Assembly (NCBI RefSeq): GCF_000970045.1
Contig: NZ_CP009505.1
Location: forward strand, 1,302,001-1,366,000
Source of the DNA: Methanosarcina sp. MTP4
Lineage (GTDB): Archaea > Halobacteriota > Methanosarcinia > Methanosarcinales > Methanosarcinaceae
Reading direction: 5' to 3'
DNA: 64,000 bases
Shown: positions 26,083 to 35,092 of the stretch, piece by piece
Numbering within the stretch: position 1 is the stretch's first letter
Layout: every line of letters starts with the position of its first letter
Notes under the pieces: generated by a model
What the model was told of the DNA's origin: nothing
The model's input: only the letters and a program-made list of their open reading frames with translations
Database searches by the model: none
Program-made: the position numbers and the translations under genes

Positions 26083-29022
26083 TTACTTTTTTTGTTTTTC
26101 AGGTCCGAGGGCGGGGTTTTTCCCGTATTCGGATTCGTACTCTCCCAGGGACCTGGAGTTCCCTAGCAGGAGTTTTCTTGCCCTGTTGTAGACGCTCGGG
26201 ACTTTTTCGGGGTCCAGGTCGGCAAGGAGGTCGGCAAGGAGTTTTGCCAGGGGGAGGCGGTACTCCTTTTCCATCATGTCGATATCCGCGAAGGTGTTTA
26301 GCATGTGGACGGTGCTGTATTCGTTGACCGGAGCCAGTTTCCTGAGGGCTTCGGCCATGAAGCGGCGGCCTTCTTCGGTCTGGAGGGACTTTTTCCGGTT
26401 GCGGGCAAAGTTTGCGTAGAGGGCGCGCTGGTCGTTGGCCTGTTCGATCCGGAAGGCTTCGGACTTTTCCATTTCCCGGACGAGTTCCACGGCGTCGGCG
26501 CTGCTGCTCCGGGCGATAACTCCCAGGAAGGCTTCCCAGGCGACCAGGTTATGCTTTGATTCTGCTTCAAAGGCCCGCAGGATATCCACTTTGTCCGGGG
26601 CGGAGCTGTCCAGGTAGGCGGCAAAGGCAGAGAGCCTGTCCGAGGCACAGCTTGCGGCTTCGAACTGCTGCTTGATAAGGCCGTGGACTTCGGGGGTGTC
26701 CAGGGACGCCAGGATGCCGAGGCAGACGTTTTTGGCCTGCCGGTTCTTGATGACCCGGGCTTCTTCTTTCAGGGTCTCGCCTTTTGCGGCCGAGGCTTCC
26801 TCGAAGTAGCGGTAGGCTGAGAGCAGGGAGTTCGAGTACTTTGCGGCAACCGCCCTGAGGAGTTTTTGTTTCACTTCATAGAGGGCCTGGTAGCGGTGGG
26901 CATATTCCTCCTCTTCCACGGACTCGAAAATAGCCAGGAACTGCCCGCCGGCTTTTTCGAGGAGTTCGCGGTCGTTGAGCAGTTTGTAGTAGAGGGAGAC
27001 GAAGTCTTCGGTGGGTTTTGCTTCAGGGTCTTTGAGGAGGCGCAGCTTTTCCCGGTCGACCAGGGTGTAGAAGGCGGTGAAACGGCCTATGATGTCGCTG
27101 TCCTTCCTGACCTGGAGCAGGAGCTCTTCGGGGCTTGCGTCGTAGACGAGTTTCCCGTAGAAGGAATAGTCCCGGTTCAGGGAGAGGAAGGCGGGCTTTG
27201 CAACGTTTTCCACGGTGATTTCCGCCTGCTTGCCGCTGACCCGTTCCAGGACTTCGGCAAGGTCGTTTCCTTTCTCGTCCACGAGGGCTGCCCTGAACGG
27301 GAAGTCCCAGGGTTTTCCTCCTTCGGGGACCCGCTGATTGAGCCTGAAGGTGAAGTTTTGGGAAGCTTCGTCGTATTCCGTGGTGACGTCCACTACAGGG
27401 AACTTTGTCTGTTTGAGCCAGACCTCGGCCATCTCTTTCAGGGGCTGCCCGCTTGCTTCTTCCATGGCCTCGATCCAGTCGCCGGTGCTGGCGTTCGAGT
27501 GCCCGAATTTCTTGAAGTAATTGTCCAGGCCGCGGATGAAAGTCTCCTTTCCGATCAGGGTCTCGACCATGCGCACGAATTCCGGGGCTTTTACGTAAGT
27601 GACGGCTGTGATCAGGTCGTTGGGGTCGTTGAAGCCGTCAGGGATGATGGGCATGGAAGCTGCGCCGGAGTCCAGGGCAAAGGTCCCGTAGCCCGGAGCG
27701 AGCAGGTCGAGCACCCGCCCGAGCCTCTGGTATTCTTCCCCGAAAAGGAAGGCGTGGTACTGTTCTTCCACGTTTACGGTCACGGCTTCGTTGAGCCAGA
27801 TCTCGAAGGGGCTCTTTCCGGTCACCTCGGACCCGTTCTGGTTGTGGTAATACTCGTGCACCTTGACCCTGATCATGTACTCGAATGCGGGGTCCGTGAT
27901 CTGTGTGAAGGGCATGATTCGGTTGGTGGTAATCGTGGTGTTCCCGACGTTTTCCATTCCCCCGAAGTCCGAGTTCTGCATCCCGATCTCCCGGTAGACG
28001 GTCCCGGTGTATTTGTATCCGGGGCTGATGCTGCCGACAAGTTTTGCGAGCTCGGCCCGGATTTTCCCGAGTTTCTGCACTGCGGGTTCCGGTGCTTCCG
28101 TAGCTTCTGTGGCTTCCGGTGCTTCCGTGGCTTCCTCGGCTTCCCCGGCTCCCTTGCTCGCCCATGCTCCGGCTCCGTACTTCAACCGGTCCCGCTGCCG
28201 GACAAGTTCCCAGAGCTTTTGCCGGACGGCAAGCTTTTCGGGGTCGTACTGTTCGGGGCCCGTGAAGAGGTAGACCCACATCACGGAGTCGTAGAGGATG
28301 TCAAGAGCCCTTCCTGCGGGCCCGTCCTCGGATTCCGGCGGTACCAGCAGTTCCAGCATGAAAGAGTCCCCGTCCGGGTACTCGAACTCCAGCCTGAAGG
28401 TGGAATAGGTCCCGACTCCGAGGAAAAAGAGGTAGGTCGCCATGGGCGTAACCGAGTTGTCGTAGACGATTTTGTCCCTGCCCGGCTTTACGGTGTGCCG
28501 TTCCTCGACAACGTCCCCGTTGGTGATCAGGTTGGTGTAGCGCGAGTCCGCTATGATAGTTGTCCTGTAGGTGCACTTCGCACACATATCGTCAATGCAG
28601 GGCACGATCCTCTGGAAGCCCCACTGCTGGCACTGCGTGATCTGCTGCGGGGGAGCCCCGGCGGGCGTCTCGTCATAGTAAAGCCCTTCCAGGATATTCT
28701 TCGTGGGCCTGCACACCGTATCCGTGACAACCGTAATTTCGGTCTCAGGCGGCACCGGGTCCAGGAAATTGACCTCAAGGATGGCGTCTGCCTTCCTGTA
28801 CTTATAGTGTACCTCGTACTGGATACAGCTAACAGCCCTGACCTCCAGGTCCCTGCAGTTCAGCTCCAGCTTCTCAACTGGCTCGCCCAGGGTCTTCACC
28901 CTTAACATGGACTTCACATTCGTCCGGTCATCAAAGACGTCAAACACCAGGTCCATGTGCAAAACGTCAACTTTGAGTTCCCCGAAGTCTTCGGGATAAT
29001 ATTTGTAGAGTCTTGGTTTCAT
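26083..29022 (-). CDS. M1 family metallopeptidase (aminopeptidase N type)
   Basis: A 979-residue zinc aminopeptidase that probably trims peptides in the cytosol, since there is no signal peptide. The exopeptidase motif GGMEN is at residues 354-358, the zinc site HEYYH at 389-393 and the third ligand in WLNEAV (E412), 18 residues after the second histidine as required. An insertion at about 285-315, rich in Glu, Ala and Thr (EATEAPEATEATEAPE), lies before the catalytic domain. The C-terminal half is an ERAP-like helical domain. The IscB element ends seven bases upstream of its ATG, so its native promoter region was probably displaced. Confidence 0.93.
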   Translation of the reverse strand: MKPRLYKYYPEDFGELKVDVLHMDLVFDVFDDRTNVKSMLRVKTLGEPVEKLELNCRDLEVRAVSCIQYEVHYKYRKADAILEVNFLDPVPPETEITVVTDTVCRPTKNILEGLYYDETPAGAPPQQITQCQQWGFQRIVPCIDDMCAKCTYRTTIIADSRYTNLITNGDVVEERHTVKPGRDKIVYDNSVTPMATYLFFLGVGTYSTFRLEFEYPDGDSFMLELLVPPESEDGPAGRALDILYDSVMWVYLFTGPEQYDPEKLAVRQKLWELVRQRDRLKYGAGAWASKGAGEAEEATEAPEATEATEAPEPAVQKLGKIRAELAKLVGSISPGYKYTGTVYREIGMQNSDFGGMENVGNTTITTNRIMPFTQITDPAFEYMIRVKVHEYYHNQNGSEVTGKSPFEIWLNEAVTVNVEEQYHAFLFGEEYQRLGRVLDLLAPGYGTFALDSGAASMPIIPDGFNDPNDLITAVTYVKAPEFVRMVETLIGKETFIRGLDNYFKKFGHSNASTGDWIEAMEEASGQPLKEMAEVWLKQTKFPVVDVTTEYDEASQNFTFRLNQRVPEGGKPWDFPFRAALVDEKGNDLAEVLERVSGKQAEITVENVAKPAFLSLNRDYSFYGKLVYDASPEELLLQVRKDSDIIGRFTAFYTLVDREKLRLLKDPEAKPTEDFVSLYYKLLNDRELLEKAGGQFLAIFESVEEEEYAHRYQALYEVKQKLLRAVAAKYSNSLLSAYRYFEEASAAKGETLKEEARVIKNRQAKNVCLGILASLDTPEVHGLIKQQFEAASCASDRLSAFAAYLDSSAPDKVDILRAFEAESKHNLVAWEAFLGVIARSSSADAVELVREMEKSEAFRIEQANDQRALYANFARNRKKSLQTEEGRRFMAEALRKLAPVNEYSTVHMLNTFADIDMMEKEYRLPLAKLLADLLADLDPEKVPSVYNRARKLLLGNSRSLGEYESEYGKNPALGPEKQKK

Positions 29023-29028
29023 CTTACC

Positions 29029-30312
29029 TCAGCAGGAGACTCTCTCCTCGGCATTTCCGGCTTGCCGGAAATGGCAGGTGGGGGAGGAATGCGTCAACTG
29101 TACCATCTGAACTAATGTAGTACTTCTCGCACTCAGTCTCCTATATTTTTTCTTAATATTGACACTATCTGAAATTTTGTTTCCAAATATATCTGAGATC
29201 GAAAAATACCCGCTTGACCGTTTTCCTCGAATGAATCCGATCCCCTTTTCCGTATTTACAAGATCGAATTTCCTGAGGCCAAACAACTTTCCGGTAGGTA
29301 TTTTCTTCTCAGACCGTTTCCCTTTTCTTTGCTGATAATCTCCCGCAGGAACGTGTTTTTTGAAGTAGACCGTATCATCCGGTTCTACCTTCTGGTTATC
29401 CCGGCAACAGATAGCAACAGCATCAAAATAATGCGTTTTTTCGAGTCCCAAAACTTGTTCTCGCCGGAATTTTGTTTCGTAGCCGAAAACGTTCTCAAAG
29501 TTCCAGCCGGATTTCTTGATTCGGGACTTGACAATGCCAATTTCGGTTGCGTGTTTCGTGTTTGACCTTCTCCCTGAAAGCTCAAAGTTCCCGGCATGAA
29601 GGGAGCCGTGACAGGTTTCACAGAGCACGATCATGTTTTCCGGGGCATCTGACCCCTGCTTTGACCTGAAAATGATGTGATGGCAATTTAGCCGGGAATC
29701 CTTTGACTTTCCCTTGCAATGCTGGCAGGTGTACCCATCCCTGTACAGGACGTAAGCCTTGGCATTATAGAAGCCTTTGAGATCCCCTTCCTGATATCCT
29801 TTTCCGGAAACTTCCGGGTTTTTGATTTTGTGGATATCAAAGGAGGCAAGTTCTACCTTCCACTTCGTTACCGGGAGAATGGACTCCACAAACTGTTTTT
29901 CCCTGAAATGAGAATCAAGTTTGCTTTTGATGGAAGGAGCCAACCTTCCTTCTCTCCTCGAATTTCCCCGGTTATTGAACCTTGCTGGCCTGTACCTTGT
30001 CTTCCGGCTTCTCCGGGTTCTTCTGTACATCTGCCTTTGTTGCATCTTTTTCGAAACGTTTTCTCTCAGGTAAATTTCGGACTGATACAGCACTTTTTCG
30101 GAAGCGATAGCGGCGCATCCTACGGTTTTCGATCCGGTATCCATTCCGGCAGTTACGGGCTGAGTGTAGCTACTGCTTTCGAAAAGTAACTTGATGGTGA
30201 AGGGCGTGGTTCGGACCACTTTTGCCTTTCCTGTTTTGAGCAAGATCCTCGCTTTTGCCGGTTTCGTGGGCATGAGCGGGGTTCCATCTTTGTTTAGTAC
30301 GAATACAAACAT
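29029..30312 (-). CDS. iscB: RNA-guided endonuclease IscB
   Basis: A 427-residue nuclease of the family ancestral to Cas9, guided by omega-RNA to cut double-stranded DNA. The N-terminal PLMP domain is visible (NKDGTPLMPTKPAKARILL, residues 7-25). RuvC-I is GMDTGSK with D58. The arginine-rich bridge helix is RRTRRSRKTRYRPARFNNR at 97-115. RuvC-II is VELASFD with E154. The HNH domain has CQHC, HHIIFRSKQG (H211, H212), N226 and CETCHGSLH. RuvC-III is KTHYFDAVAI with D297. All catalytic residues are present, so the protein looks active. The last 30 residues are unlike the family and include the element's terminal palindrome. Confidence 0.95.
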   Translation of the reverse strand: MFVFVLNKDGTPLMPTKPAKARILLKTGKAKVVRTTPFTIKLLFESSSYTQPVTAGMDTGSKTVGCAAIASEKVLYQSEIYLRENVSKKMQQRQMYRRTRRSRKTRYRPARFNNRGNSRREGRLAPSIKSKLDSHFREKQFVESILPVTKWKVELASFDIHKIKNPEVSGKGYQEGDLKGFYNAKAYVLYRDGYTCQHCKGKSKDSRLNCHHIIFRSKQGSDAPENMIVLCETCHGSLHAGNFELSGRRSNTKHATEIGIVKSRIKKSGWNFENVFGYETKFRREQVLGLEKTHYFDAVAICCRDNQKVEPDDTVYFKKHVPAGDYQQRKGKRSEKKIPTGKLFGLRKFDLVNTEKGIGFIRGKRSSGYFSISDIFGNKISDSVNIKKKYRRLSARSTTLVQMVQLTHSSPTCHFRQAGNAEERVSC

Positions 30313-30640
30313 TCGTAATTGCTCCTATTGAATAGGGTTATGCATATCCGGGTTAGTGGAGACAATCCCGGTTTCCGGCTTCCTCTCGATCAGATATGGA
30401 ATGGTTTTATGATGCAAGCACTGTCCCTACCTCTCAGGACTGATTAACTGGCATCCTTAGAGCCTGAAACTGAGGCGGCATTCCAGGGTAACTATGAATT
30501 CGTTCCTATCGTTTCCCGATCTTTCCTAAGCTCCTAATCGGGGATCTGGTCAACCAGGGCTTGTTAGACAAGCCCCTTCCTAAAACCTGAGCCGTTAGGC
30601 GGGTTTTAGGGAGGGGCAGTTGACGAAAATGTCACCGATG
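30313..30640 (-). ncRNA. omega-RNA (HEARO RNA) of IscB
   Basis: The noncoding region directly upstream of iscB on the same strand folds as expected for the guide RNA. From 30624 downward GTCAAC opens an outer stem closed by GTTGAC at about 30554-30549. Inside, CCCCTCCCTAAAACC pairs with GGTTTTAGGAAGGGG (14 of 15 pairs), capped by the GCC-TAAC-GGC hairpin, and is followed by a CTTGT/ACAAG hairpin. The guide would be the roughly 16 bases 5' of the scaffold, above 30624. The 3' part reaches to the iscB start. Limits are approximate. Confidence 0.8.
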
Positions 30641-30927
30641 GAAGTTATGAGGGTTATTTTTTGGATAGAAAAGGTAGGGATGGGATTTAAAGGTGTTTGG
30701 TTTGGGAGGGGGATTTTCCTACCATCTATAACTTAATTAATATATTTCACCTGGGGGCTGCTCGGATAGGTTCCGAAAAACCGGTGAACGGAACGATGAT
30801 CCAAAAAATAATCAAAAGATTGCTCAAAAAACTACTTTCCGATATACTCAAATAAGTAAAGGAGTCAAGTATTTATTGTTTAAAAAATAATGAAATGTTG
30901 CTATTGTTTGTTGAGTTTTAAAATAAG
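30641..30927. other. AT-rich mcrB upstream region
   Basis: Junction between the IscB element and the defence block. AGTATTTATTG at about 30868-30878 is a TATA-like element that would start transcription shortly before the mcrB ATG. Otherwise nothing is recognised. Confidence 0.5.
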
Positions 30928-32334
30928 ATGATCCATATGAATAAAATTGAAAAGGCTATTGAATTCGTACAAGAATTAGCCGCTAATTTCGGGGCGAAAA
31001 GTGAAGAAGGGGCAAATGATTATATTTTCCGTAATAACACATCAAAAGATTCATTAAAGCAGGGTGGTGCGTTTTTTGGTTTAATATCTCCGGAGGAAGA
31101 AGCTTCTGGTAAATATCACGATTTTTCTCTAGTCATTTTCCCTGCCGAAGGGGGAGAACCTTGGTTAATATCCATTGTTGCAGGCTCTTTGGGGTTTAAG
31201 AATGATTATGAGCTAGCTGCTTTACCGGGTGTTAGGAGGCTCTTTTCTTCTATTATTGATCAGGATGGATTCAGCAAAACTTCTTTTTTGGATATAGAAA
31301 GCAATCTACCCAAACAGTTTATGGAAAAAATTCCTCACTTGAAAAACTCGTTAAAGAATTATTCTAAACTGATAACAGCTTGCAATATTATTCGAGATCC
31401 ATCATCTGAAAAGGATCAAAAAATGATTGCAGGATTTGTTGCAGCCTATGCTCAGATAAGGAATTTTGCAGGAAATGATCCGGCTAGGAATGCGATCAAA
31501 AAGGCGATATCAGAAGTTGCAACAAAGATAGATGTGGATGAGGAAGAGGAGGTATTAAAATTAGTGCAAAATAGAAAATTTGTGATCCTTCAGGGAGCAC
31601 CAGGAACTGGAAAAACCAGATTAGCAAGAATTATTGCTCAGAAGCTTAATTCAGAACCTTTCTTTACTCAGTTCCATGCTGAAACCAGTTTCAGTGATTT
31701 TATGTATGGGATAAAACCTGACCTTGATGCTGGACAGTTAGCTTATGAGGAAAAAACAGGAATTTTCTATGACTCTCTTAAAAAAGCAGAAGAAAACCCT
31801 GAAAAAAACGTTGTGCTAATTGTTGATGAGATCAACAGAGCAAATTTATCCAACATTCTGGGACCGATTTTTTACCTATTTGAGTATCAGCTAGAAAAAG
31901 AAAAAGTAGCTGTAAAAATTGATATTGGTGGGGGCTACGAAATAAGTAAAATCCCTTCCAACTATTACGTTATTGGTACGATGAACACTGCTGATAGAAG
32001 TCTTGCAGTAGTCGATTTTGCTCTTCGGAGGCGTTTTGCCTGGTACACATTGAAGCCTAAGCCAATCAAACCTGCTATTGGTTTGAAATTTTTCAAAAAG
32101 GACTTCTCAGAACTTAATAAAATTTTTAGTTGGTATGCAAGTAGTGAAGAACTAAATTTGCAACCGGGGCAAGCCTATTTCATAGCCTCAGACGAAACTG
32201 AGATGAAAGATCGAATAAAATACGAGTTAATGCCCTTAATAAAAGAATACCTGGCTGAAGGTCTTTTAACAAATGCAAGAGATGAGTTCTCGAAATATTT
32301 CTATGAAAGACTGGGTGAGGTTTTGTTTGAATGA
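30928..32334 (+). CDS. mcrB: McrB-like AAA+ restriction subunit
   Basis: A 468-residue AAA+ motor of an McrBC-type (type IV) restriction system. Walker A GAPGTGKT is at residues 223-230, Walker B VVLIVDEINRAN near 295-306, the McrB-specific MNTADRS at 352-358 and the arginine finger stretch LRRRFAW near 367-373. The first 200 residues form a separate domain resembling the DNA-recognition or MrcB-like N-domain, with FSLVIFPAEGGEPWLISIVAG. The last four bases overlap the start of the mcrC-like gene. Codons are AT-rich compared with the flanking genes, which suggests acquisition. Which modified base or DNA it recognises cannot be told. Confidence 0.9.
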   Translation: MIHMNKIEKAIEFVQELAANFGAKSEEGANDYIFRNNTSKDSLKQGGAFFGLISPEEEASGKYHDFSLVIFPAEGGEPWLISIVAGSLGFKNDYELAALPGVRRLFSSIIDQDGFSKTSFLDIESNLPKQFMEKIPHLKNSLKNYSKLITACNIIRDPSSEKDQKMIAGFVAAYAQIRNFAGNDPARNAIKKAISEVATKIDVDEEEEVLKLVQNRKFVILQGAPGTGKTRLARIIAQKLNSEPFFTQFHAETSFSDFMYGIKPDLDAGQLAYEEKTGIFYDSLKKAEENPEKNVVLIVDEINRANLSNILGPIFYLFEYQLEKEKVAVKIDIGGGYEISKIPSNYYVIGTMNTADRSLAVVDFALRRRFAWYTLKPKPIKPAIGLKFFKKDFSELNKIFSWYASSEELNLQPGQAYFIASDETEMKDRIKYELMPLIKEYLAEGLLTNARDEFSKYFYERLGEVLFE

Positions 32335-33713
32335 CTTCCCCACAAAATGTTTTTTTCGAAATGCCTTGCTTGATTGAAAAATCACAATCTCTTTCTGGTT
32401 TTCTTCTTTCAAAAAAATGGTTTAAAGGGGCAGATCGTAGATATTTAGCTGAATCTCTACAAAAATTCGTTGAATACAACAAGGAATTGTTTGATTTCCT
32501 AGAAGTCACTCCAAGAATTGAAGGTAGTGGAAAAAGTGCCAGCTTAAATTTTAGATCCGATCGTTTTATCGGAGCGATTCCACTTCGAGCACCTGATACG
32601 GGAAAGCAAATAGGAGATTTTGTAGTTCGACCTCGTTACACTTCTGCAAACGACCAGTTTTCAGAGTATGTTGAAATCGTAAATCTCCTTGAATCTGAAA
32701 TACTTCCTGAATTCAAAAATTCAATTCCGCTTCTGTCGCATAGGAATCTTAGACCGCCTATCTATTTGGAAGCAATAAAGTTCGTAAAATTGCTTGAAAA
32801 AGCGGTAAAAGCAAAGTGGAATAAATTCCAGAACACTGAGAGGATACACAGATATCCAAAATCTGAGGTGAACTGGAAAAGATACGTTGAAAAAGAGTCT
32901 GATCCTGCTAAGAGATTACTTTTTCCCTGCCGTGATAACACTCTGAGCACATTTCATAGCGAATTCTTCGAGTTGAAATACGTTTACAGCATTTCGAAAA
33001 AGGAGATAAACTCGTTTAAAACTCCCAGGCATATCAAATATCAATTTCAGGATACTTTAACATATTTGGATAATGCTTTGTACGAATTTCCCGAAAAATT
33101 CACAAACGAGCTCTATATTCATAATTCAGATTCCGTTGTCATTAAGAAATTGAAAGTTCAAGGGAACAAGATTTTAACCGGGAATTTTGAAGAAATCACT
33201 GCCTGGAGAATCGATTTTTCACTTTTATTTGAAAGGTATGTACAATTTATATTCAAGCAAATATCCCTAGAGATTGGAGCAAAGCAACTAAATAATTACA
33301 AAATCAGACAATTTTCACGTTTTAACCCTCCCTGGGCTCTTAATTATCTGGAACCTGATGTAATCCTTGTGAAAAATAACCTGGATATTGTAGTGGATGC
33401 AAAATACAAGTCTCACTTGTTCAATCTGAAAAGTAGTACAGAGGAGTTAAAAGAGGAACATAGGAGAGATTTGCATCAGTTGCTTGCTTATACTGCTTTT
33501 AGTAAGAACAAGAATAAGGTTGGAATTTTATGTTATCCTTCCAATGAACAATTTCTTTTGGAGTTGGATTATGTGTTTCCGCATTCCAATGTTGAGAGTA
33601 AGGTAGTTCTTTTAGGGATTCCCTTGAAAAAATCTGAGCTTTTTGGATTGAGGGAGTCGATTATTGATTTTATTTCGGGGATTGAGAAGGAGCGTTTGGT
33701 TGGGGTTGTTTGA
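32331..33713 (+). CDS. mcrC: McrC-like nuclease subunit
   Basis: A 460-residue protein with the McrC arrangement: a diverse N-terminal half and a C-terminal PD-(D/E)XK nuclease. The active site is EPDVILVKNN then LDIVVDAKYK (D343, D357, K359), followed by a helix with HRRDLHQLLAYTAF, typical for McrC. Its start overlaps mcrB by four bases (ATGA). It would be activated by the McrB hexamer to cleave DNA. It is longer than classic E. coli McrC. Confidence 0.88.
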   Translation: MTSPQNVFFEMPCLIEKSQSLSGFLLSKKWFKGADRRYLAESLQKFVEYNKELFDFLEVTPRIEGSGKSASLNFRSDRFIGAIPLRAPDTGKQIGDFVVRPRYTSANDQFSEYVEIVNLLESEILPEFKNSIPLLSHRNLRPPIYLEAIKFVKLLEKAVKAKWNKFQNTERIHRYPKSEVNWKRYVEKESDPAKRLLFPCRDNTLSTFHSEFFELKYVYSISKKEINSFKTPRHIKYQFQDTLTYLDNALYEFPEKFTNELYIHNSDSVVIKKLKVQGNKILTGNFEEITAWRIDFSLLFERYVQFIFKQISLEIGAKQLNNYKIRQFSRFNPPWALNYLEPDVILVKNNLDIVVDAKYKSHLFNLKSSTEELKEEHRRDLHQLLAYTAFSKNKNKVGILCYPSNEQFLLELDYVFPHSNVESKVVLLGIPLKKSELFGLRESIIDFISGIEKERLVGVV

Positions 33714-33826: not shown

Positions 33827-35092
33827 ATGTTAAATGAAGACGAACAACATGGAAACATTATAATATTCGATGTAGAGTTTTATGACAAAATCCATGAAAT
33901 GATGATTCGTAATAATTTGCCAGGTTCAGTAACTATAAAAAAACTGGAATATTTATTGGAAACCGGTTTAGAAGTTAGTAAAGAAGAGTTTTGGACATAT
34001 GGTATTTTTACTGAATGGAAAAATAAGCCCGGATGGAAAACTTTTGATGATTTTAAACGTAGATTGCCAGATAGGATTGGAATCTATGAAAATTACTTTG
34101 GTTATTGCGATGGGGTAGTGATTTCAAAGTATAAAGGTATAAATGAATCATTGCCTTTTGCGACCGAAAGTTGTGGAGTTGCTGGTTCTCTTGTATTAAT
34201 GAACAGATTGTTTGGTTTTCATGAAGCCGATTGGGAAAAGATTAATGTCAGTAAATCAAAAGACTTGGATTTTAGAATTGCTTCAACCGGAGAATACTTT
34301 ATTGAAGTGGAAGCTAAGGGAACTATTGTTGGAGATGACGGAAAAAGTGCATCAATATACGGTCAGAAAAAAGATATAGAAGATAAAAAGCGAATCCAAA
34401 GAGAAAGTAATGATATTATTCAACGAAGCTCTCTTTTTGGAGTAATTACTTGCATTCCGTTCAAATCTGATGATGACCACGAATGTAATCTAAGGGCAAA
34501 GTGCTTACTTTTAGATCCAGCTCCTGAAGAAATAATTGAAGATCCCTTAAAGTTCAAATTGCTGTCTCGCCTCAAATTCTACCAAAAAAATTTAGGTATG
34601 ATTTCAGATTCTAAAATAATTACAGTTCTAAATAATAGAATACGTGTTATAGAGCATTCAACTAATTTTTGGGATTTCCATCAATTACATTTAATCAACA
34701 AAACGGGAAAAAAGTTACAAATAAACTCTAATTCATTTGATAGGAAAACAGTAGTTGATAGAGATTCAATAGTTGGGCAAGTGTTTCCAATTAGCCAAAC
34801 TCTTTTTTTCTTCTATGGATTTGAAAGCGAATTATTTAACGTTATGATTGACCAAGATTTCAATGAGATTTTAAATTACAAAAAAGAAATTGCAAAATTT
34901 TATAGATATGTTAAAGCAAAAGTGGATATTGAAGACTTAAAGAGATATGGTATAAATTATGAAAAGTTCAGAAAAATCAAAAATTCAAATAAAGTAGAAG
35001 TGCTAACAAAAGGAAATCTATTTAGAAGTAATTCTGGAAGAGTTGTAGGATTTCTAGAACATTCTAACGAAAGTTTGGAAAATTTCTACTGA
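33827..35092 (+). CDS. Unrecognised protein with PD-(D/E)XK-like motif, linked to mcrBC
   Basis: A 421-residue protein matching no family I can name. Residues 146-164 read DLDFRIASTGEYFIEVEAK: a strand with Asp, then E-V-E-A-K, the order of a PD-(D/E)XK nuclease core. An upstream helix with E114 (ATESCGVAGSLVLMNRLFG) could complete it. A Lys-rich helix follows (QKKDIEDKKRIQRES). The C-terminal half is mixed alpha/beta without motifs. It starts 113 bases after mcrC, with a TATA-like TATTTTTTATATG at about 33750-33762 and AAAGG before the ATG. The same strand and the same AT-rich codon use suggest it belongs with mcrBC as a second effector or a specificity factor. This is inference. Confidence 0.6.
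   Translation: MLNEDEQHGNIIIFDVEFYDKIHEMMIRNNLPGSVTIKKLEYLLETGLEVSKEEFWTYGIFTEWKNKPGWKTFDDFKRRLPDRIGIYENYFGYCDGVVISKYKGINESLPFATESCGVAGSLVLMNRLFGFHEADWEKINVSKSKDLDFRIASTGEYFIEVEAKGTIVGDDGKSASIYGQKKDIEDKKRIQRESNDIIQRSSLFGVITCIPFKSDDDHECNLRAKCLLLDPAPEEIIEDPLKFKLLSRLKFYQKNLGMISDSKIITVLNNRIRVIEHSTNFWDFHQLHLINKTGKKLQINSNSFDRKTVVDRDSIVGQVFPISQTLFFFYGFESELFNVMIDQDFNEILNYKKEIAKFYRYVKAKVDIEDLKRYGINYEKFRKIKNSNKVEVLTKGNLFRSNSGRVVGFLEHSNESLENFY

Follow-up and report, generated by a model that had tools for sequence, protein, structure and literature searches.

An IscB element with an omega RNA, inserted at the start codon of an aminopeptidase gene in Methanosarcina sp. MTP4

The closest described systems are the OMEGA systems (OgeuIscB, PDB 7xht and 8csz; OrufIscB; TbaIscB), with which the locus analysed here has in common the RuvC and HNH residues, an upstream HEARO RNA carrying a 5′ guide, and a TAM lying 3′ of the target. 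With the IS200/IS605 elements that carry tnpA and tnpB, it has in common the lack of target duplication, a subterminal hairpin and a short motif on one side only. Retention of an element by guided cutting holds for IscB, and for TnpB and IscB it has reportedly been studied in Geobacillus. Such retention is described for TnpB in the excerpted text of PMC11870625, and the HEARO nucleases treated in the excerpt of PMC9755519 have an RF02033-type RNA in the 5′ region, as found here.

In the window, which is the whole 64,000-nt stretch of Methanosarcina sp. MTP4 DNA that was analysed, an apparently intact IscB with a well-formed omega RNA had been predicted. The observation was confirmed and its interpretation was supported. 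The locus has the following features.

29023-30624, minus strand: mobile element, whose flanks rejoin in empty alleles of three sister genomes and whose ends are as in other copies.
29029-30312, minus strand: iscB, 427 aa (RRXRR/PLMP-RuvC, HNH and C-terminal region), recognized by Pfam, NCBIfam and the catalytic residues.
30374-30624, minus strand: HEARO/omega RNA scaffold (RF02033, 111 bits, model positions 1-211).
30625-30644, minus strand: guide, which is host DNA next to the element; it adjoins the RNA 5′ end, and the same sequence followed by ATGAAA is found in the empty G002 and G003 alleles.
29052-29073, minus strand: subterminal hairpin CATTTCCGGC-AA-GCCGGAAATG of the TAM-side end, read from the sequence; the end in which it lies resembles those of other IscB and TnpB elements.
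29017-29022, minus strand: ATGAAA, the target-derived TAM, composed of the aminopeptidase start codon and Lys2 codon and present at empty-allele junctions.
26083-29022, minus strand: M1 aminopeptidase gene, cut off from its leader by the element (Pfam Peptidase_M1; sister genes in G001-G003).
30685-30691, minus strand: TTTAAAT, which may be an archaeal TATA box from the promoter that the aminopeptidase gene had originally, in a stretch matched 93-94% in G001 and G002.

The iscB frame at 29029-30312(-) was found to encode 427 aa with zero internal stops, and to match NCBIfam guided_IscB (NF040563) with 343 bits against a cut-off of 175, as well as Pfam RRXRR (PF14239; 221 bits, residues 3-176) and HNH (PF01844; 36 bits, residues 196-240), which bears out the original prediction of an intact IscB. 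The RuvC and HNH catalytic residues D58, E154, H211, H212, N226 and D297 were all present at the numbers first assigned to them, and D58, E154, H212, N226 and D297, though not H211, are invariant across 18 aligned IscBs. IscB chains were the best solved relatives by sequence (11hr_A, E 3.8e-38; 7xht_A, E 1.7e-36). An AlphaFold2 model of the protein was of moderate quality (mean pLDDT 70.6), and a Foldseek search with it returned IscB or IsrB structures at all of the top ten ranks (8csz, E 1.3e-25), with a TMq of 0.53 for the whole-chain match to IscB. In the C-terminal region, where a TAM-interacting domain was sought, strands were modelled within residues 314-405, but residues 323-343 and 408-427 fall below pLDDT 50.

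Directly upstream of iscB and on the same strand, Rfam HEARO RF02033 was matched end to end (1-211) at 30624-30374(-), with 111 bits against a gathering threshold of 83 (E 5e-22). The match starts exactly at GTCAAC and is the only above-threshold Rfam match in the window; the fold, which had been staked on the HEARO covariance model, was thus recovered by that model. Both stems described before are visible in the RNA, with GTCAAC pairing with GTTGAC and the CCCCTCCCTAAAACC/GGTTTTAGGAAGGGG stem having 14 of 15 pairs as read from the sequence; by hand count, cmscan flags 14 positions of the match as non-standard pairs. The folding energy was not significant compared with shuffled sequences (z −1.47; 16 of 200 shuffles folded equally well or better), and RNA stability was rejected as evidence on this ground. 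Because the folding energy is unremarkable, it is the covariance model that carries the case for the omega RNA. When 13 omega RNAs were folded jointly with RNAalifold, 33 pairs resulted, seven of them with two-sided change; no weight was placed on these, since four rows belong to a second subfamily whose 3′ part was possibly misaligned by MAFFT. HEARO matches of 103.5 to 119.3 bits were obtained in 8 of the 10 loci searched, and the two loci that had none, L195 and L188, carry TnpB instead of IscB.

The site was found without IscB in three sister genomes, namely at two places each in G001 and G003 and at one in G002. Because the flanks rejoin exactly in these empty alleles, the whole element was defined as 29023-30624(-), a stretch of 1602 bp running from GTCAAC to GGTAAG without target-site duplication; the range 29029-30640 predicted originally held except at its low end, which was slightly short. 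The empty-allele junction is gapless and has no repeat, with ...CATCGGTGACATTTTC directly joined to ATGAAACC..., the latter being the start of the M1 aminopeptidase gene. The same ends occur in other copies of the element, and with the intact second copy of the own genome the alignment begins at GTCAAC, runs through GAGGTAAGATGAAA and stops there. Insertion without target duplication beside a short fixed motif is a trait of IS200/IS605 elements that is present here. These borders also bear on whether the locus could merely reflect chance similarity, or a degenerate HNH gene next to an unrelated structured RNA. The HNH part alone does match other HNH families, if weakly; but the full IscB and full HEARO models lie side by side and the RNA begins, at its 5′ end, exactly on the element border, and this explanation, with next to no probability, was ruled out by the guided_IscB match, the HEARO match and the empty-allele border.

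A guide length of 16-20 nt was assumed. In the empty allele, the guide target AACTTCCATCGGTGACATTTTC is followed by ATGAAA, which was the TAM of the window's copy in 5 of 5 empty places, and the guide predicted to lie just above 30624 was confirmed by these alleles. That the guide is drawn from flanking DNA, with the TAM adjoining it in the empty site, holds for the window's copy and was checked in other copies. Targets were searched for with 16 guide bases extended by NTGAA, and the reversed pattern was used as control. G002 and G003 each had one exact match; when one or two mismatches were allowed, G003 had one further match and G001 had two. In the own genome, apart from two places with three mismatches, the pattern matched just at the site of the element, which reads GTCAA in place of ATGAA. 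The reversed pattern matched twice in G002 and nowhere in G001, G003 or the own genome. These matches indicate that the guide records the insertion site, and that the filled site lacks the TAM. At L109 and L110, the aminopeptidase start and leader are doubled in tandem in G003 and G001, so that the guide target or a near match occurs twice there.

ATGAAA conforms to the NWRRNA type of TAM. It is also compatible with the IscB TAMs given in the excerpted text of PMC13180657, which are NWRGNA for an engineered OgeuIscB and, for OrufIscB, NTAAA with single-mismatch variants from NWRRN. With regard to the guide, a preference for a 24 bp spacer is stated for MG35-1 in the excerpt of PMC9755519.

At the filled sites, TGAA was found at all 13 right ends that were located (a 32-base stretch was searched in each; L046 was not located and was left out), and no common motif was seen by eye in the left flanks of 14 copies. 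To the empty alleles, 12 other insertion sites were compared by querying with their flanks, L046 with its left flank alone and with L061 and L037 outside the query. A junction-spanning, element-free allele was obtained at 9 of the 12, including L049 and L050, while the flank query yielded none for L041 and L046, and the match of L045 was left out of the count (71%, reaching only 10 bases past the junction); the junction-spanning matches of L049, L050, L045 and L047 in G000 were also aligned. At eight of the nine sites the flanks of the empty allele meet with no more than about one additional base, this being the base ahead of TGAA that the query omitted, and at L040 there are 15 extra bases. 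TGAA stands at the empty junction in at least one genome at five of the nine sites (L036, L042, L044, L047 and L051) and 15 bases on in L040, and is absent from three: L048 has GGAA, L049 has CGAA, CGGG or AAAA, and L050 has TGGA. The junction motif is less constant in empty alleles than at filled sites; probably the sister alleles at L048, L049 and L050 have diverged since the insertion. Two small elements were encountered as well. In G001, L040:3022-3475 is a short element with both ends and an omega RNA and without iscB (matching element positions 1-303 and 1532-1607), which is MITE-like with a guide RNA, and in G002, L183:1408-1465 is an element of ~58 bp in which the GTCAAC left stem is joined to the GCGGAGG right end, followed by TTGAAA.

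The window's copy is inserted exactly where the leader of the aminopeptidase gene ends and its ATG begins, immediately 5′ of ATGAAA. The aminopeptidase ORF is open over 979 aa, with homologues of 92-96% identity in G001-G003 (the G003 match being in pieces), and its leader is now 1.6 kb off. The element end in front of it, TGCTGAGGTAAG followed by ATG, comprises the iscB stop, an SD-like GAGGT and the start codon, with the GAGGT three bases and the iscB stop six bases ahead of the ATG, and co-expression of the aminopeptidase with the element is plausible from this arrangement. In the conserved leader, TTTAAAT at 30691-30685, now upstream of the omega RNA, is a possible former promoter element of the aminopeptidase gene. 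It could be envisaged that the insertion acted as a start-codon exchange, in which the host promoter and leader would become promoter and guide of the omega RNA, the element end (GAGGTAAG before ATG) would provide a new ribosome-binding site, the aminopeptidase would be translated from an omegaRNA-iscB-aminopeptidase transcript, and the element would be tolerated before a working gene; taken as a whole, we consider this unlikely.

Start codons as preferred insertion sites were rejected, because the TAM opens an ORF of at least 100 aa at only 2 of the 13 sites with a located right end, these being the aminopeptidase (979 aa) here and, in G003, a gene of the HxlR type with 118 aa. At L042, by our own reading of the alignments, the insertion falls on the stop codon of an upstream gene.

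Beside the element, an AAA ATPase gene (AAA_5) overlapping a 460-aa gene occupies 30928-33713 of the window. The AAA_5 gene is McrB-like by our own reading and perhaps forms a restriction pair with the 460-aa gene, for which no Pfam or PADLOC match was found, nor was one found for the adjoining 421-aa gene at 33827-35092. Such a neighbour, together with a position exactly at a start codon and the GAGGT three bases before the ATG, would be in line with an IscB kept by the host for a role other than element retention, such as regulation of the aminopeptidase operon or defence. Nevertheless, the site is empty in three sister genomes, which means that the position is not conserved, an ORF of at least 100 aa begins at the TAM in only 2/13 sites, and the copies display a multi-copy mobile pattern, which together make a host role very improbable.

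Four HEARO matches were found in the own genome: the window's copy, an intact one at 786 kb whose protein is 90% identical, a copy at 363 kb with a broken iscB, and a weak remnant at 1505 kb. With a second intact copy in the same genome and further IscB copies in sister genomes, the element is not exceptional. In total, 12 of the 60 genomes searched, the own genome included, had HEARO matches, among them the related genomes G033, with at least 32, and G004, with 29; tblastn of the window's IscB against six scanned loci of these two genomes (L005, L006, L016, L018, L025 and L026; 1.9-3.2 kb each) found nothing at E 1e-8. The element itself lacks tnpA, and the only Y1_Tnp match of the own genome is broken, covering profile positions 2-86 of 121 with the remainder in another frame; the gene beside it was read as tnpB, and the end sequence there is unlike those of the IscB elements. 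A complete TnpA of 145 aa (NF033573, 123 bits) was found in a sister genome at L195 (G001:C22), alongside a TnpB of 424 aa, both opposite in direction to iscB, and L188 (G003:C216) is a further TnpB element.

When the TAM-side ends were compared, the IscB copies L041 and L048 showed 87-97% identity to the TnpB-bearing elements L188 and L195 across 55-69 nt, the end of L041 having 97% identity to L188 and 87% to L195, each over 69 nt. For the window's copy, the TAM-side end is 72% identical to L188 over 79 nt, and to L195, whose exact right border was not located, it is alike only over 26 nt (E 0.015). On the guide side, the IscB and TnpB elements have only ~16-17 nt in common, which is not significant (BLAST E 0.30 and 0.81; the window's copy and L195 have 17 nt with E 0.30). 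The genus has two IscB subfamilies, ~40% alike in protein, and the ends are alike across both, as seen in L042 and L051 (91% identity across 78 nt and 90% across 73 nt). The IscB and TnpB elements here may be moved by one kind of TnpA.

To the archaeal relatives, the window's IscB has 86-90% identity. Pairwise dN/dS was 0.13-0.30 among five archaeal copies, indicating purifying selection, and 0.16-0.24 between the window's copy and the four others. On the branch of the window's copy, 12 replacement codons and 21 synonymous changes were counted. Residues 184-242, the HNH region, contain 8 of the 12 private replacements (scan permutation p 0.002; the region was chosen after viewing the change list, and p covers the scan over windows of one length only), including L227M at a nearly invariant position. 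Of the 18 private synonymous codons, three fall there. The private synonymous changes also bunch to some degree, their densest 59-codon window holding 8 of 18 (p 0.07), and the HNH clustering may come partly from local rate variation or gene conversion; it also hints at relaxed constraint, with the catalytic residues untouched. The protein may be an active nuclease, as proposed originally, and full activity is not to be assumed because the private changes cluster in the HNH region.

A recent fossil has to be weighed, that is, a young insertion that looks complete and whose copy no longer cuts efficiently, with its HNH drifting, or no longer moves. The broken TnpA and the decayed sister copies of the same genome would be expected of it, as would 8/12 private replacements within residues 184-242 (p 0.002), but it accords poorly with the kept catalytic residues, with 12 replacement codons against 21 synonymous changes overall and with dN/dS of 0.16-0.24 against the four other copies, and local rate or gene conversion, to which the synonymous bunching (p 0.07) points, could explain part of the clustering. 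We regard the fossil as possible though rather doubtful.

Very probably, the locus is a non-autonomous IscB element of the IS200/IS605 type whose RNP would cut the empty site. Support comes from the protein and RNA family models, the Foldseek matches, the empty alleles of this site and of nine others, the exact target with its TAM in G002 and G003, the low dN/dS and the TAM-side end found also in TnpB elements; against it stand the unremarkable folding energy, the HNH clustering, the broken Y1 transposase, the three sites whose empty alleles lack TGAA, and the short guide-side likeness to TnpB elements. The element consists of an omega RNA and an RNA-guided nuclease gene without a transposase gene, inserted 5′ of ATGAAA. 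The insertion set the aminopeptidase leader beside the omega RNA as guide and parted the target from its TAM, an anatomy visible at the locus, and because of this parting the filled site should escape cutting. The former aminopeptidase promoter, or another, would drive the transcript yielding the omega RNA, the IscB RNP would cut any empty copy of the site in which the target is followed by ATGAAA, and repair from a filled chromosome copy would bring the element back. Archaea of the Methanosarcina type are polyploid, which would suit repair of this kind. Because the only Y1 transposase gene of the own genome is broken, TnpA would be needed in trans and the element may be stranded; movement could have been provided by a TnpA such as the complete one of the sister genome, which lies in an element with a similar TAM-side end. 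Guide, TAM and intact target can all be read from sister genomes, which makes cutting of the empty allele directly testable and the locus a clean case in which to examine RNA-guided retention of an element in archaea. It also shows one archaeal genus having IscB and TnpB elements with nearly the same TAM-side transposon end.

With respect to origin, nine other archaeal IscBs were aligned and were 31-40% identical to the window's protein, farther than the closest bacterial ones (60-64%), which occur in Vibrio, Thiomargarita and Marinomonas and on plasmids of Pseudoalteromonas and Shewanella. A 7-row clade of the tree, supported at 100/100, unites the five archaeal copies with two from bacteria (L059 and L065), which suggests a transfer between the domains in either direction; the fork joining the five archaeal rows is weak (84/95). 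A homologue of 84% identity with an interrupted reading frame is present in a Methanosarcina sp. MAG, the viral collection yielded a relative of 61% on one contig, and phage records gave 25 matches, all below 60%.

The excerpted text of PMC6452270 draws no link between IscB and Methanosarcina. Compared with the OMEGA IscBs, the window's IscB of 427 aa is 24% identical to 8csz in the structural alignment, and the TAM core is TGAA here and in its kin. Compared with IS200/IS605 elements carrying tnpA and tnpB, iscB here replaces these two genes, which read the opposite way. For the IscBs of Vibrio, Thiomargarita, Marinomonas, Pseudoalteromonas and Shewanella, a HEARO RNA was found likewise in L059, L060 and L065; they differ in that their hosts are bacterial, plasmids included. 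The kind of element is already known, and what is known of such systems is unchanged.
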